This document shows positions 14,790-53,635 of a stretch of 64,000 nt of DNA, in pieces; position 1 is the stretch's first letter; each line of letters begins with the position of its first letter. Origin of the DNA: Phalacrocorax aristotelis (lineage: Eukaryota; Chordata; Aves; Suliformes; Phalacrocoracidae); the NCBI RefSeq assembly GCF_949628215.1, contig NC_134297.1, positions 2,976,001-3,040,000 of the forward strand, written 5' to 3'. The position numbers and the translations under genes are program-made. The notes beneath the pieces were generated by a model that searched no databases, had not been told where the DNA came from, and saw only the letters and a list, made by a program, of their open reading frames with translations.

Positions 14790-15125
14790 CATAGAATCAT
14801 AAAATAGTTAAGGTTGGAAAAGACCCTCAAGATCATCGAGTCCAACTGCTAACCTATCACTGCCAAGTCTACCACTAAACCATATCCTCAAGCACCACAT
14901 CTGCACGTCTTTTAAATACCTCCAGGGATGGAGACTCAACCACCTCCCTGGGCAGCCTGTTCCAATGTTTGACAACCCTTTTGGTGAAGAAGTTTTTTCT
15001 AATGTCCAACCTAAACTTCCCCTGGCGCAGCTTGAGGCCATTTCCTCTCGTCCTATCGCTTGTTACTAGGGAGGAGAGACCAACCCCAACCTCCCTACAG
15101 CCTCCTTTCAGGAGGTTGCTGCTGG
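14790..15125 (-). mobile_element. CR1 LINE, 5'-truncated 3' end (avian type)
   Basis: Read on the minus strand, this is the 3' end of a chicken-repeat-1 (CR1) non-LTR retrotransposon. The frame across 14875-15125 encodes the C-terminal end of ORF2, with the family-typical string [20 protein letters not shown] preceded by [10 protein letters not shown]. After the stop come the usual GGACTCGATGATCTTGAGGG and CTTTTCCAACCTTAACTATT blocks. The element ends in a TATTTTATGATTCTATG tail, the 8-base ATTCTATG-type repeat used by CR1 instead of poly(A). It lacks the endonuclease and most of the reverse transcriptase, as almost all CR1 copies do. It is the best-preserved repeat here and the main reason to call the genome avian. 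Confidence 0.93.
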
Positions 15126-16766
15126 ACATTCATGTTCTGCAGAAGGAAAAGCCTTGAAAGTCTTGAAAGCAGAGGGAGGGGGGAAAGAGAAGGGCTTTGT
15201 ATGGAGGAGTAGAAAAAAACCACAGATAAATAGCAAGGCCAGATCTATCCATGGCCTCTAAAGGACCTCTCTGCAATTCAGACAGCTGGGAGACTGGCAG
15301 GCTTTGCTCTTTCTGATCAGGATGGCAGTGTCACAAACTTGCTCAAGGTCCTCAGCCACCTGTATGTTCATATAGCTTGGTCCTAAAACAGTGTAGCTGT
15401 CCCAGAGGACTTAGTACTGCTGCTGTGCTGATGCAGCTTTACTGCTCCTGGTCCCAGTGTCAGAATGGTTTCTGCTTGCTCAGGAACCTCTGCCCACCTC
15501 AGGGACTTGCCTCAGGGTCAGGCTGATGAACCTGCAGAGCAGCTGGCCCCAGGGCTCCTGAGGCCCATTGCAAAACCTTTGCCACTGCATCTGCCTGCCT
15601 TGTCACCTGAAGCAACAGGTCCTGCCTCAGACACAGTTCTGTGCAGCTACAGTCCCTGCAACACTGGGGCATGCATCTTGGCACAGAGACTGCTGGGTGT
15701 GCAAAAGGGAACCTACCAGCTGGTGAGAGCTTTGGGCCAGATGGTGGGCAGGATTAGAGACATTTGATTTTTCAGAATGCATCAGAAACCTAGATGATCT
15801 AATATCGCTCCAGATGTGAAATGTCTTAATCCACAGGGAGGAGATCTTTTTTTGGGGGGAAGGGACAGTCCTTGCCAACTCCCTTCCCGGAAAGGAATTC
15901 TCTTGCCTTGTCGGGGGTAGTGGTCTGCGAGCGTGTTAAAGAAATTACAGCATATAGCTGGCTCACCACTCTTCACTGGCAAGCCACACAGAGAGCCTTC
16001 CAGCACAGCATCTCCCATACCCCTGCATGCAGTCATTTGGGCTATGAGATTTTTAAAAATGCCTTTATTACAGTGATTATTATTGTAAGTAGGTTAAAAC
16101 ATCATTGACAATGCCAGCTACCCTGAGGAGAAAAAAATAGTGACTTGGAGACTGGTGATTTCAAGCAGCTGCCCACCTCCCCTTCCAACCCCATTCTGAC
16201 TAATTCAGACCTCAGGCAGATGCCTCTTGGCTATGATCTGCAATGTACAAAAAAAAAAGCTTTATAAATAACAACTATTGTTCCAAGATTGCTATCTCTG
16301 CCTCTCCCTCCTTCGCCATCTCCCTAAGGCAGATTCTGAGGCCTCCATTTGTGCTAAGGAGAAGCAGAGGAGGGTCGCTGGAATCTTCCTTCCTGCTCTG
16401 CTTTCCATTTTCTTTTCTCCCAGTACACATGGCTTTGCTACAGTGGAGACACAAAGCTGTGTGCCCCTTGCTTCCGAAGTGCACTTCGTGTGAAAGGCAA
16501 AGCGGAGCTCAGCTTTGTGTGTCTCTGCCCACTTCAGTCTTGCATAAGAACATCTACTCCCTTTGATTATGCGTATTGGCTTCACATCTGGTTTTGTTTC
16601 ATTTCTGTGTTCCTGAACATCCCTAAGTGAAGAACTATTTTACCATTCAGGGAAGGATGCGCCCAGGCAGGGTTTGTGAATAAGGACTGAGAGCCTCCAC
16701 TCCGCAGGACTTCAGACGAGGCTGGAGCAGCTCAGCCCGGCTGGACTCCAAGCACCCAGAGCTTTT

Positions 16767-36440: not shown

Positions 36441-39400
36441 TTTCCAATAGCAAAAAATTTGTAGCCCCAAACCTAAGATGCTTTTAAAAAAGTTAAAAGG
36501 CCAGATTCCTCTATTGGCTTTTATCCTTCATTAGGAGCAAGAAGATTACCTGAAATCATGATTTCTTCTTTATATTCTGCCTGAGTTCATTTTAAAATTC
36601 CAATCAACAGATGCAAGGAAGAGAGGGGGGAAAAGCTAGTGGGGGGTCATGTTAGGCTTTGAAAAGGAAAATTAGAGAGAGAATGTTTTTCTTTCTAATT
36701 TTTTTCCCCCTTGGGTTTCAGGTTATAAGACAGCTATTTAAAGGATGCTTTCTCCAAATGTGTTGGCTTCAAAATATGTCCCCATGCCATCTGGATTTAA
36801 AAGAGTCAATCCAAGAGATTGGGAGTGGGAGCAGGAGAGAAAAAGGACAGAAACAAAACCCCTAAACCAAGCGTTTTTCTCTGTTCTTGGGTTGGTTTTC
36901 AGCATCTTTCATTATTAGCATCTTATTATTTTGTCCAGCAATCTTGACTGTTTAGCTCTTCACAACAGTGATTTCCTATCCCCACTGCCAAGGGGGAAAC
37001 AAATTTCTCCAAAGGAGGGAAAAAAAAAGATACAGCCTCAGATTTAAGCACTGGCTGTGCTGTAAAACTTCACACAAGCTGGAACAAGGGCTGTGAAAAT
37101 CCACACCCAGCTACTTTGGTGCACAGTGTAGAAATTGACACAAGGGAACCTACGGACATTTAATCAGGTTGGACACATCCCATCCAATACAGGGCAGCTG
37201 TCACCCACATACACATGCATACACATAGCCAGCTTAATACAGGAGGGCCAGGATGAGAAAAGAAGTGAGTACTGAATGAGACGTGGGCAAAGGCAGAGTG
37301 TTCCCTTGAGCATTAGCAAGCCAGGCAGATACTTAACCTAATCATGTCAATTACAATTGCACCAAAATTTAGAAATCAATAAATAAAATAGGCAATGGCA
37401 AAGGGGGGATCTAAAAGGCCTCGGTTTTTGAGCAACAGGATCAGGAGAAGTGAAAAACATTAGCTTCTTCATTTTGCTCTGTTGACACTTTAAACATACT
37501 GTTCCTTAGGACAGATGTAAGGAGCCCGGGAACCGGGAGTTGGGCAGCAGAAGGAGATGTCAGAATGATGAAGATAAAGATCTTGTGGGAGGTCTGACAA
37601 GGGGGTATAGACATGAGGGATCTTCTCCAGATATCGATCTTCATGTGAGTAACAGTGGTTCAGGTAATCACTCGCATTCGATATCTCTGAGTGACACTTT
37701 CCAAAGTTCTGTAAGTAGAGACAAAAGTCAATGGGTGAAAACTCTGGGATCATTGGCCATAAAACATACAACTCTTCAGTTCCTTGCTGAGACACACATA
37801 TAACAAATAGGATGGAAAATTAAACAGTTCTGCTTATGGCTTCAGAAAAATAGAAACTCAGGTGCTAAATCCTCACATTTCAAAATTTTTGTCTCACTTC
37901 CCAAAATATCCATATTGCTGATGAATATGTATAGATTTTGCATCGTTTGCCCCTTGTCTGTAAACACTCTGCCTCTCTGGATAAAATAAGCAGTCGCCTA
38001 AGAAAGAACAGGGTTTTTTCAGTCTTCCTAGCTCTCCCACACCTGAGGTTTGAAATAGCAGTGCTTCTATGCATCATTAATCTAATCCAGGCTCATTCTT
38101 TTTTATTTAAAGGGCACATATGTCTGACCAGGGGCTTTGGAGGCAAAATAGGTTATTGTGTCTAATGTTTACCTAGTAGATAGGAGTGCATGTACTAAGC
38201 TTTACCTGTGTGAGCAGTTCCACTGAAAGCCCTGGGGCCAGTTTTGTAAGTCAAATCAACTACAGAGAATCTAAAACACTTCCAAGATCTAGACTGCTCT
38301 GCGGTCCCATGATCTTCCCTCTGATGGAGTGTATTCTTATGGATGCTTTGCAAAATCTGATTATTCTTCTTTAAGTGCCAAATGAAAGGAAAACCCCTCG
38401 GAGTCCAAAGTACTTTGATGTCTATTGAGATAATTTTGCAGAGGTGTAGCAAGCAATACTGTAGAAACACTGCTTGTTCGAATGCAAAAATCGCAGAGTC
38501 TCTTTTTCTCCCAGAAAGCTCCATGCAAACAGCAGCAACTGGAAGAGAGACCCCCGCCCCACCCCCGCTTATCCTGGTGTGCCTGCAGGGGACGCTTCTG
38601 TAAGCCCACAGGAGGGCAGAGCTTTTCCACAGCCCAGGAATCTGGCTCCCCAGAGGGTGGCAGCAGATGGGAAGGATTCCTCCCTGCTCACAGACCCTTT
38701 CCTCAGGTTTGAAGCCCTGCAAGATGACCCAAGCAGGAGGGACATCTAGCGAGGACAGTGCTTTTTGTCTTTAAAAACAACCCATATTCATAGGCTCTCA
38801 CCAAGGGCTAATCTCTTCTCTAAGAGAGAGCAAATGCACTGGCAATCACCTTTTATGCCTGTGGTTTGAACTGGGGCTGGTTGTAGCAAGTAACTTGCCC
38901 TTGAGCCCTTCCTTGTTCTCTTTCAAAATACCAGAAACAGTCTGTTTAGTGGAAAGGACAGGATTTGACCCTGAGGAGAAAATGCCTGAAGGAACAGAAC
39001 AATCTACTCTGCTCATGTGCTGCCGGTTCCTGGATAAATATTTCACCAGGATGCTTTAAAAGATCATATAGAAAACAAAGCATCGACAATAACGTATTGA
39101 TGGTTCAGACTGCTAGAAGAGACAACAAGCAAGTTGGAGGGCTGCACAGTCTTAACACAGTTTCAGGAACAATCTCACTAAGAGCAATGAAGGCCACTAG
39201 AGGACAGAAAGTTTGTCTGAGCACCAGTAAAACAGCAGCAATGCTAAGGTCAATGTGATTTTCATTTCCCTTTTCTTGGCAAAACTGTACATCCCACCAC
39301 TTAAGCTTTTAAAAGTCAGTGAACTCACTGGGCCAGATAGCAAAGAAAAATAGGCTCTAAGCCCCTTCTATTTAGAATTGCTGTGTTGGTATCTGAAATT

Positions 39401-42400: not shown

Positions 42401-44284
42401 TCAGTCTGCACCAAATGTGTAACTGGTGCAGGTTTTATAGAGGCATTCAGCAAGCTGAGCTGGGAATCTGAACCCTGGTCAGTAATTTGCTGGGGTTTTG
42501 GTGCAAGTCTCATGGCTTTGAGCTATTCTTGCTGTAACAGGGACAAGAAATTCCCAAACAAAACTGACAGCCAGAGAGTGGGGAGGTGAAGGGGGAGGAA
42601 ATAATTTAAAAAGCATTAAAAAAAAATAATCGCCCTGATCTGTGGTGTGCCTTAACAGGGAGATCTTGTGGTGGTGAGATTACACCTTCAAAGCGCCATA
42701 TGACTGGCTTTATTTTTACTTCAGAGAAACTGGGAGGATTTCCAAATTTGGATTTGGAGGATTACTGTCCTTCTGGTGACGACAAAATTCCCCACCCTAG
42801 GGAGGACAAGGTGATACCTCCCAAGATGCATTAGGGAGTGCTTGCCTTGTTTGTAACAGTGGGAGTAGTCCTCCAGTGCAGCCCAAGAAACTGTTGGGAA
42901 TTAAAGGTGAAAGTATAAAGGAGGGTGACTGCTTTCAACCACATCTTCCTCTGGGCTGGTGTTTTCAACCTCTCTCTGTGTGCAAGAAGCTGGCAGCGCT
43001 GCTGCCTGTTGGTGACAGGCAGGCAGGTGACTGGGAGCTGATCAGCACCTCTCTGCAGTGACAAACAGATCCCACACCAGAATGAAGAAAAATGAAACTC
43101 ATCCAAAACTTACTGTCCAGTCTCGCTCGTTACGTCTACGAAGACCTTGATCCTCATTCTGGGAGCAGGGGTGGGTGAGACATCACAAGAGAGAGAGGTT
43201 ACCGTTCTGGTCCGGGCCAGGCCTGCTGTAGACACTTACCTAGAGAGGCTTTTGCAAGGTAACTACAGGGCTGCTTCCAACACAGGAAAACCAGGGACCA
43301 CAGGGATAAAAGCGAACTGAACTAACCCTGGCACACCTTCCACCCAGGTGTTTCTGCTCCACCTTCACCTACCTGTTAGCATGGATGTTCCTAGTCTGCA
43401 AGGAGACACTACGTCAACAGGGCTGTCCAGTGGGACTTTTTAAAAAAGCTGTTTTTCTCCTGTTTATCCTCCTCCATGGAACTATTCCTTTCCTTCCCAG
43501 GGGTCCAATTCCCCTGCCCTTTGATATCGTTCTCCAACCTGCCTCTCTCCATCCTCAAGCTACTGCTTCTCTGTGTGCCTACTCTGATCTACCCTGGGTG
43601 ACAGGGGTGGGATTCAGTGAGCTGCAGAGCACCTCTTCTCTCCCTTTGCTTTCTTCCTTGTCTACCTACACTTCTCCACACCTCTTCATTGAGTACCCCT
43701 GTGGGGCTGTAGCCCCATTAAACCCACAGCCCCTTCCTCCCATTTAAAAGGCAGCACAGTAAAGGGGAAGGAGCAAGACAGAGGCTGCAGTCACTACAAC
43801 TCAGGGAATACATAGGAGTGAGGGAGAGTTGTAGCCAGGGAGGGGGCTGCCAATGGCATTTCCTTGGCCAATAACTCTTGGCACCTCCCAACAAATCTCC
43901 CAAGGGGTGGGAAAGGAGAATTGTCTCCCTTTCAGACAGGGACCTGGTGGCTTTAATACCTGAGAAAAGGGTATGATTATAGGTAAGGGATTGTAAGAAG
44001 AGCTGAAGCTGCCTCTTTCCACGGCAAACACAATTCCATATCAAAGGGTCACTGGTCGTTGGAAAGGCCCACAATAACCACTTGTAGGTTTAAATGCAAG
44101 CTGAGTCCTAATCAGTCCATGCCACAGGACCTGAGCTTGAAGGAGCTTGATGACAAAGTGGTCAGGCAAGCATGAGAACAGGGAAATGGTCAGGTTTGGT
44201 CTCTAATTTTGAGAAGGACAGCACCAAATAAAATAACCTTTCTCCCTTTCTCAAACTTCCATACATGCTGCCTGCACCAACTTA

Positions 44285-45079: not shown

Positions 45080-45220
45080 CTAGCCTAAGTTGGGCTGGAT
45101 GGTTGCATACTCGACTAGGTCTCCGCCAGCATGGATGGAGGTCCGAGGACTGGGTGACGAGGCCAGAGCGGAAGTGTCCAGCTCTGCATAGTGGACATCA
45201 CAGTCCTTGTTGCCAGAGTT
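45080..45220 (-). CDS. NECTIN1: Nectin-type receptor, terminal coding exon (tandem ITIM-like tail)
   Basis: This last coding exon encodes 46 residues and a TAG stop. The acceptor is strong (TTCTCTCCAG, preceded by a long pyrimidine tract), and the exon begins in phase 0, matching the phase-0 end of the exon at 50766-50876. The peptide starts NSGNKDCD. It carries VHYAEL (residues 9-14) and VEYATI (residues 36-41), both fitting the ITIM consensus [SIVL]xYxx[ILV], with the tyrosines 27 residues apart and a Ser/Pro-rich linker between. It ends QPNLG, not with the E/AxYV motif by which long nectin isoforms bind the afadin PDZ domain. ITIMs recruit SH2 phosphatases such as SHP-1 and SHP-2 when phosphorylated. 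That this exon does so is inference. The exon itself is well supported by frame and splice sites; the assignment to nectin-1 rather than another nectin is less sure. Confidence 0.8.
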   Translation of the reverse strand, partial: NSGNKDCDVHYAELDTSALASSPSPRTSIHAGGDLVEYATIQPNLG

Positions 45221-45360: not shown

Positions 45361-45412
45361 GAAGGGTGGAGGGAGAAAGAAGAAAAGGGTGAGAGGGGGG
45401 AGGAAGAAAAAA
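45361..45412. repeat. Purine tract (pyrimidine tract on coding strand)
   Basis: Fifty of 52 bases are purine on the plus strand, with T only at 45367 and 45390. On the coding strand this is a CU-rich tract about 140-190 bases before the acceptor of the terminal exon, inside a broader CU-rich 3' intron end. Confidence 0.8.
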
Positions 45413-50765: not shown

Positions 50766-50876
50766 CAGTTTGTCAGTGTAGGGGGAGGGCTCGGTGGCTG
50801 CCATGTCATAGTATGGAGTCTGCAAAGGGAGTTTCTTGATTTCCTCCTCATGTTTCATGTTGTCCAAGTGAACAAC
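50766..50876 (-). CDS. NECTIN1: Nectin-type receptor, third exon in window (cytoplasmic tail)
   Basis: This is a 111-base exon (37 codons, phase 0 at both ends), so it could be skipped without breaking the frame. Acceptor CTCTATTATAG and donor CTG/GTAAGG are both good. The peptide opens VVHLDNMKHEEEIKKLPLQ and continues TPYYDMAATEPSPYTDKL. Together with the end of the previous exon it makes the block EDIQVVHLD, and LPLQTPYYD follows. Both resemble blocks that I recall from the short-isoform cytoplasmic tail of human nectin-1; a similar KTPYFD block occurs in nectin-2. The first tyrosine of PYYDM starts a YxxM motif (50802-50813), the type bound by PI3-kinase p85 SH2 domains when phosphorylated. 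The acidic/basic stretch before it may be helical. Confidence 0.85.
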
Positions 50877-51370: not shown

Positions 51371-51458
51371 CTGGATGTCTTCTGCATTCAGGTGGCTTTT
51401 CATCTCCTGTTTCCTCTTTGGTGGAGGGACAGGTTTGTGGGATGGAGGCAAGTCAATT
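51371..51458 (-). CDS. NECTIN1: Nectin-type receptor, second exon in window (proline-rich tail)
   Basis: This is an 88-base exon. Its first base completes the leucine codon split with the preceding exon and it ends in phase 0 with CAG/GTATGT. The acceptor is TTTATCTGCAG. It encodes IDLPPSHKPVPPPKRK, then QEMKSHLNAEDIQ. The proline segment contains PVPPPK, which fits a class II SH3-binding PxxPx[KR] motif, followed by basic residues. The EDIQ end continues into VVHLD in the next exon. The stretch lies in the cytoplasm about 14 residues after the membrane helix. Similar proline-rich tails occur in other short nectin isoforms. Confidence 0.85.
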
Positions 51459-53487: not shown

Positions 53488-53635
53488 AGGTCATTGTCCA
53501 TTCCAGTGCGGTTCTTTTGTTGCCGCCTGTAGACAATAATTACGGTGACAGCCACACCGATGATGAGAGCTCCTGCAATGACGCCTCCCACGATCCCAAT
53601 AATGCCTCCCGGGCCACCCTGAGGTAGTGGCTTAT
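53488..53635 (-). CDS. NECTIN1: Nectin-type receptor, juxtamembrane and transmembrane exon
   Basis: This 148-base exon starts in phase 1 (usual for exons following Ig domains) and ends with two bases of a leucine codon. Acceptor TGTATTGCAG and donor GTAAGTA are consensus. It encodes a short linker (KPLPQGGP), then a hydrophobic helix of about 25 residues beginning GGIIGIVGGVIAGALIIG and ending VIIVY (roughly 53529-53603). A basic stop-transfer RRQQKNR and MDNDL follow. The layout, the phase and the tail blocks in the following exons identify it as the membrane exon of a nectin-family adhesion receptor. These are type I proteins with three Ig domains at cell-cell junctions. The Ig exons would lie beyond 64000. 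Family assignment is fairly secure; nectin-1 is my best guess from tail resemblance, with nectin-2 or nectin-3 as alternatives. Confidence 0.85.

Follow-up and report, generated by a model that had tools for sequence, protein, structure and literature searches.

One of the questions raised by this locus is why a gene of the nectin type, a family whose members are described as adhesion molecules with an afadin anchor (PMC10416819, PMC7286890), should encode a tail bearing two ITIM-like tyrosine motifs. To what is the exon with these motifs joined, is it peculiar to birds, and what would it do to a receptor that carries it?

The exon chain and the identity of the gene

On the minus strand of the window, which is the whole stretch of 64,000 nucleotides that was analysed, four exons are found between 53.6 and 45.1 kb, all with canonical splice sites and in phase with one another. 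When joined, they give an open tail of 162 residues with one transmembrane helix and the end ...VHYAEL...VEYATIQPNLG.

53488..53635, minus strand: transmembrane exon, DKPLPQGGPGGIIGIVGGVIAGALIIGVAVTVIIVYRRQQKNRTGMDNDL, starting in phase 1, with donor GTAAGT and tblastn matches from nectin-1 models
51371..51458, minus strand: cytoplasmic exon e2, IDLPPSHKPVPPPKRKQEMKSHLNAEDIQ
50766..50876, minus strand: cytoplasmic exon e3, VVHLDNMKHEEEIKKLPLQTPYYDMAATEPSPYTDKL, containing YYD
45080..45220, minus strand: ITIM terminal exon, NSGNKDCDVHYAELDTSALASSPSPRTSIHAGGDLVEYATIQPNLG, then stop; a homologous exon is present in 91 of 134 related proteins

The acceptor of the ITIM exon is canonical (TCTTCTCTCCAG), and the exon follows e3 in phase 0, the donor of e3 at 50766 being GTAAGG. 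A 24-base tandem repeat (45362-45410) lies within the pyrimidine-rich stretch that precedes the ITIM exon and may influence splicing.

A search with the window tail against 5.8 billion proteins gave 96 matches, 86 of which are named nectin-1, 1a, 1b or -1-like, the other 10 being hypothetical, uncharacterised, Ig-like or FAM101A-like; the best is a bird protein (Myiozetetes; cluster of 15) with E = 3e-90 and 91% identity. Judged by the orthology of its transmembrane and cytoplasmic sequence to annotated nectin-1, the gene is NECTIN1, and the original prediction of a nectin-type receptor is thereby borne out by homology. Ig-type Pfam domains are listed for 91 of these 96 relatives. Within the window, no family was found by a Pfam search (E 0.1) of the 44.5-64 kb interval in three minus-strand frames, that of the ITIM exon included, and the Ig-domain exons therefore presumably lie beyond 64000. 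Searching PDB sequences with e3 plus the ITIM exon, or with the ITIM exon alone, gave no match; the tail is expected to be disordered. Further searches with a monkey tail (87 proteins) and a shark tail (106) brought the pooled set to 134 different proteins which, judging by their names, are mostly computed models.

The stem is that of a known form. Nectin-1 beta (HIgR), of 458 residues, has the same transmembrane stem and e2/e3 region, and a 458-residue monkey model, P0097, shares the e3 segment PPYYDLGVSPSY. The difference lies in the end, for P0097 finishes VRTTELGGECP, without an ITIM, and its cluster of 60 mammalian members, which we take to include human HIgR, runs into VRTTE... after e3 as though splicing at the e3 donor had been skipped. 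The equivalent read-through in the window would give VRRSGC and then a stop.

Conservation of the two motifs

The two motifs themselves are placed as follows.

45179..45196, minus strand: first ITIM, VHYAEL, intact in 90 of the 91 relatives that bear the exon
45098..45115, minus strand: second ITIM, VEYATI, kept in all 61 models that continue as far as it and missing from the 30 that leave the exon earlier

Both lie after the transmembrane segment and in the same frame, with their tyrosine codons 27 residues apart, exactly as originally placed and spaced. Both fit [S/I/V/L]xYxx[I/V/L], the ITIM consensus as quoted in PMC8631942; the ITSM pattern TxYxx[V/I] does not apply, as VEYATI has V at -2. 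The consensus is loose, and one match alone is not special, since [SIVL]xYxx[LIV] occurs 160 times in the 105,873 residues of the window's six-frame stop-free stretches of at least 15 residues. Two motifs within an exon of 46 residues are unlikely by composition, shuffles of that exon reaching two in 375 of 200,000 cases. It is conservation across species, rather than the match to a consensus, that is the deciding evidence for the motifs, and a chance origin was rejected on that ground.

The 134 proteins were searched with five ITIM-exon queries in which the motif residues had been masked, and it is by these queries that the 91 proteins with the exon were recognised; among the remaining 43, 32 end EQYV or EQSV and 11 otherwise. 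The single exception to the first ITIM is a badger model (P0100) with H in place of Y. The 61 models that continue to the second motif read VEYATIQ in 60 cases and VEYAIIQ in one, the opossum, whose pair is LHYAEL/VEYAII, and the other 30 all diverge directly after GDLV[E/D]; both ITIMs are intact in 60 of the 91. The pattern that would have counted against the prediction, loss of the motifs from a tail otherwise kept, is the opposite of what is seen.

In terms of alignment columns, the first-ITIM block has a mean pairwise identity of 0.92 against 0.71 for the other cytoplasmic columns and ranks 3rd of 121 six-column blocks (the 91 models plus the window). The second-ITIM block, at 0.72 vs 0.71 and 68th of 121 in the same 92 sequences, does not rise above background because 30 of the models splice away from it. 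In a set of 21 sequences, composed of the window and 20 models picked among those with both motifs, the two together reach 0.93 vs 0.55, a contrast overstated by a choice of models that favours the motifs, and 219 of 100,000 random block pairs were equally conserved (overlapping draws being skipped but counted). Within this set YAELDT, VEYATIQ and, in e3, YYD do not vary, nor does the alanine at pY+1 of both motifs, and the residue at -2 is V or I (L in opossum). The 60 models that fit the strict pattern, P0100 included, have a spacing of 26-28 residues. The e3 motif is YYDL in the placental mammals and the opossum compared here; as YYDM it is a candidate PI3K YxxM site or YxxPhi sorting signal.

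How widely is such a tail distributed? Both motifs occur in models from sharks and rays (Scyliorhinus, Chiloscyllium, Rhinoraja, Mobula), ray-finned fishes (Amia, Erpetoichthys, Gadus, Oncorhynchus, Takifugu), amphibians (Ambystoma, Mixophyes, Pyxicephalus), snakes (Liasis, Pantherophis), a bird (Myiozetetes) and mammals (Rattus, Castor, Cavia, Equus, Sapajus, opossum), and predicted nectin-1 isoforms with this tail extend over sharks, rays, bony fishes, amphibians, squamates, birds and mammals. As the exon and its motifs are kept in models from sharks to mammals, the paired-ITIM tail is, on the evidence of these models, an ancient module and not a peculiarity of birds. A bird nectin isoform with a paired ITIM had been proposed, and such an isoform is indeed predicted in birds; it is no bird novelty, being spread from cartilaginous fishes to mammals. 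To be weighed against the ITIM tail is the sparse annotation of the exon among mammals, where the 458-residue form without it makes up a cluster of 60 members vs 1 to 11 in each of seven ITIM clusters; in birds, likewise, 188 members fall into the EQYV cluster P0016 vs 15 into the ITIM cluster P0001.

Competing endings of the same stem

The ITIM exon is one of several ways in which the stem can end, and the alternatives found in the window, none of which figures in the original prediction, are the following.

45111..45220, minus strand: short ITIM exon, made by an internal donor, GTCGA|GTATGC, within the VEYATI codons, so that the first ITIM alone is kept
43114..43158, minus strand: 45-base cassette exon, read as MRIKVFVDVTSETGQ after the short ITIM exon and as NEDQGLRRRNERDWT after e3
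37490..37708, minus strand: rival terminal exon, ending ...GSRAPYICPKEQYV, with the other frame TLESVTQRYRMRVIT after the short ITIM exon

The rival terminal exon lies 7.4 kb downstream of the ITIM exon, has a canonical acceptor and joins e3 in frame. The claim that the ITIM exon is an alternative terminal exon is upheld, some protein models having this exon and others its competitor. An end of the rival type is seen in 34 proteins, as EQYV in 19 and as EQSV in 15 (teleosts), the EQYV models coming from sharks and rays, sturgeon, salamander, squamates, turtles and birds. A C-terminus of the form E/A-x-Y-V is of the PDZ/afadin-binding type. Such an end is found in the 37.7 kb exon (EQYV), as in nectin-1 alpha and other afadin-binding nectins, and is absent from the ITIM tail, which differs from them in ending QPNLG. 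The nectin-1 alpha exon itself is absent from the window, since the six frames hold no second E/A-x-Y-V end followed by a stop besides EQYV.

The position of the internal donor in the window is the point at which the 30 models diverge, and its overlap with the second motif could explain part of the conservation of VEYA. Splicing from it to the downstream exon shifts the frame and gives the end LVETLESVTQRYRMRVIT, which is the end of a lizard model (P0002). The cassette can precede the 37708-37490 exon, and with it included the end becomes LVEMRIKVFVDVTSETGQTLESVTQRYRMRVIT, that of Anolis P0006 with small differences. In its first reading the cassette is near-identical in P0006, at 14 of 15 residues, and its second reading is seen in Lonchura (P0036) and ostrich (P0025) models. 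Protein models therefore read the downstream exons in two frames, ending KEQYV when joined to e3 and RMRVIT when joined to the short ITIM exon; that RMRVIT might come from an exon of its own was ruled out, as it is the EQYV exon in another frame.

Other parts of the window call for brief comment. The segments 36227-36006, 35026-34970 and 31104-30570 on the minus strand match the ends of bird models P0010, P0027 and P0024 and may represent additional 3' exons, UTR or errors of prediction. An open reading frame at 14875-15129, also on the minus strand, looks like the 3' end of a CR1 LINE, and a Pfam search of that strand over 12.7-17 kb gave no match, nor did an Rfam search of the window.

Signalling readings of the tail

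What, then, would the pair of motifs do? The reading preferred here, and the probable one, is that NECTIN1 has a paired-ITIM terminal exon which, linked through the two cytoplasmic exons that the forms share to a transmembrane exon of the beta type, provides a tail that recruits SHP phosphatases. We infer that, in cell types that would express the ITIM isoform, the receptor would bind in trans through its Ig domains, a Src-family kinase would phosphorylate both ITIM tyrosines, and the motif pair, 26-28 residues apart, would then be a docking site for the tandem SH2 domains of SHP-1/SHP-2, which would damp kinase signalling at the cell contact. Splicing to the 37.7 kb exon would instead end the same stem in EQYV, anchored by a PDZ protein, for which afadin is a guess from the E/A-x-Y-V rule, and use of the internal donor would leave one ITIM. 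Alanine at pY+1 is reported to favour SHP-1 docking (PMC8631942). Given this alanine and the fit to the ITIM consensus, the phosphorylated tail is expected to recruit SHP-1 as well as SHP-2.

Alternatives to this reading concern what the tyrosines are for. YxxPhi sorting signals, a class which YYDM, YAEL and YATI all fit, could set the internalisation of nectin-1 isoforms through AP-2 without any ITIM function. However, YxxPhi demands neither a hydrophobic residue at -2 nor alanine at +1, and both motifs have V or I at -2 (L in opossum) and A at +1 in the 21 sequences; nor would sorting need the spacing of 26-28 residues found in the 60 models, and this explanation is considered unlikely. Phosphorylated motifs might also recruit activating or adaptor SH2 proteins and so support a non-inhibitory adhesion signal, to which the YYDM of e3 could add PI3K p85. 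The YYD of e3 is invariant in the 21 sequences and takes the YxxM form in the window, and SHP-2 is often a positive regulator of ERK, points that speak for such a role, but the M of YYDM gives way to L in the five placental mammals and one shark of that set, and both distal motifs fit the ITIM consensus and have the +1 alanine; a tail of this non-inhibitory kind appears quite improbable. That the exon is unused and the motifs meaningless, a product of gene prediction or chance, might be argued from a set of relatives made of computed models and from a loose consensus; yet models from sharks to mammals preserve the frame, the stop and both motifs although the intervening linker changes, and an unused exon is for this reason extremely improbable.

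The SHP-recruiting reading can be set beside several known systems. The tail may resemble that of MPZL1/PZR; among the papers returned by a literature text search that included MPZL1/PZR motifs, none contained those motifs. Within the family, PVR/CD155 is described as a nectin relative in which an ITIM takes the place of the PDZ motif (PMC7286890) and, in the available text, as having a single ITIM, whereas the nectin-1 tail has two; no protein named PVR is among the matches of the window-, monkey- and shark-tail searches. PD-1 and BTLA, with the ITIMs VDYGEL and IVYASL (PMC8631942), likewise have two tyrosine motifs that dock tandem-SH2 phosphatases, and VEYATI resembles the motif TEYATIVF reported for chicken PD-1 (PMC6930881); the genes are different, and V rather than T at -2 makes the second nectin-1 motif an ITIM and not an ITSM. 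CEACAM1, in its long form, is described as an adhesion molecule that signals through SHP-1/SHP-2 in the isoforms with ITIMs (PMC5387134). It too is a different gene, and nectin-1 would differ from it in exchanging one terminal exon for another, the other choice being an ending of the PDZ type.

Databases already list the ITIM isoform among their 'isoform X' models. No statement that nectin-1 has an ITIM was found in the available text of the nectin literature searched, a scope outside which subscription papers mostly fall. In the available text of a survey of nectin-family evolution, the ITIM is assigned to PVR alone and the longest isoform is taken where there are several (PMC7286890), a choice that could have hidden the ITIM tail. 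In nectin-1, a classical adhesion gene would through splicing give rise to a paired-ITIM receptor. More tentatively, it is possible that NECTIN1 has been splice-switched since the jawed-vertebrate ancestor, its single extracellular adhesion domain being coupled to the junction (EQYV, PDZ), to SHP-1/SHP-2 (paired ITIM) or, in a third setting, to one ITIM, through a donor that lies inside the second ITIM and that shark, fish, frog and lizard models use at the same position, and that it forms an inhibitory counterpart to the nectin-binding immune receptors, overlooked at least partly owing to the survey's use of one isoform for each gene. Nectin-1 is described as a ligand of one such immune receptor, CD96 (PMC6373967, PMC8390200); a conserved paired ITIM would make it signal-receiving too, and nectin contacts could signal both ways. 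Splicing may thus convert a cell-cell adhesion protein into a phosphatase-recruiting receptor.
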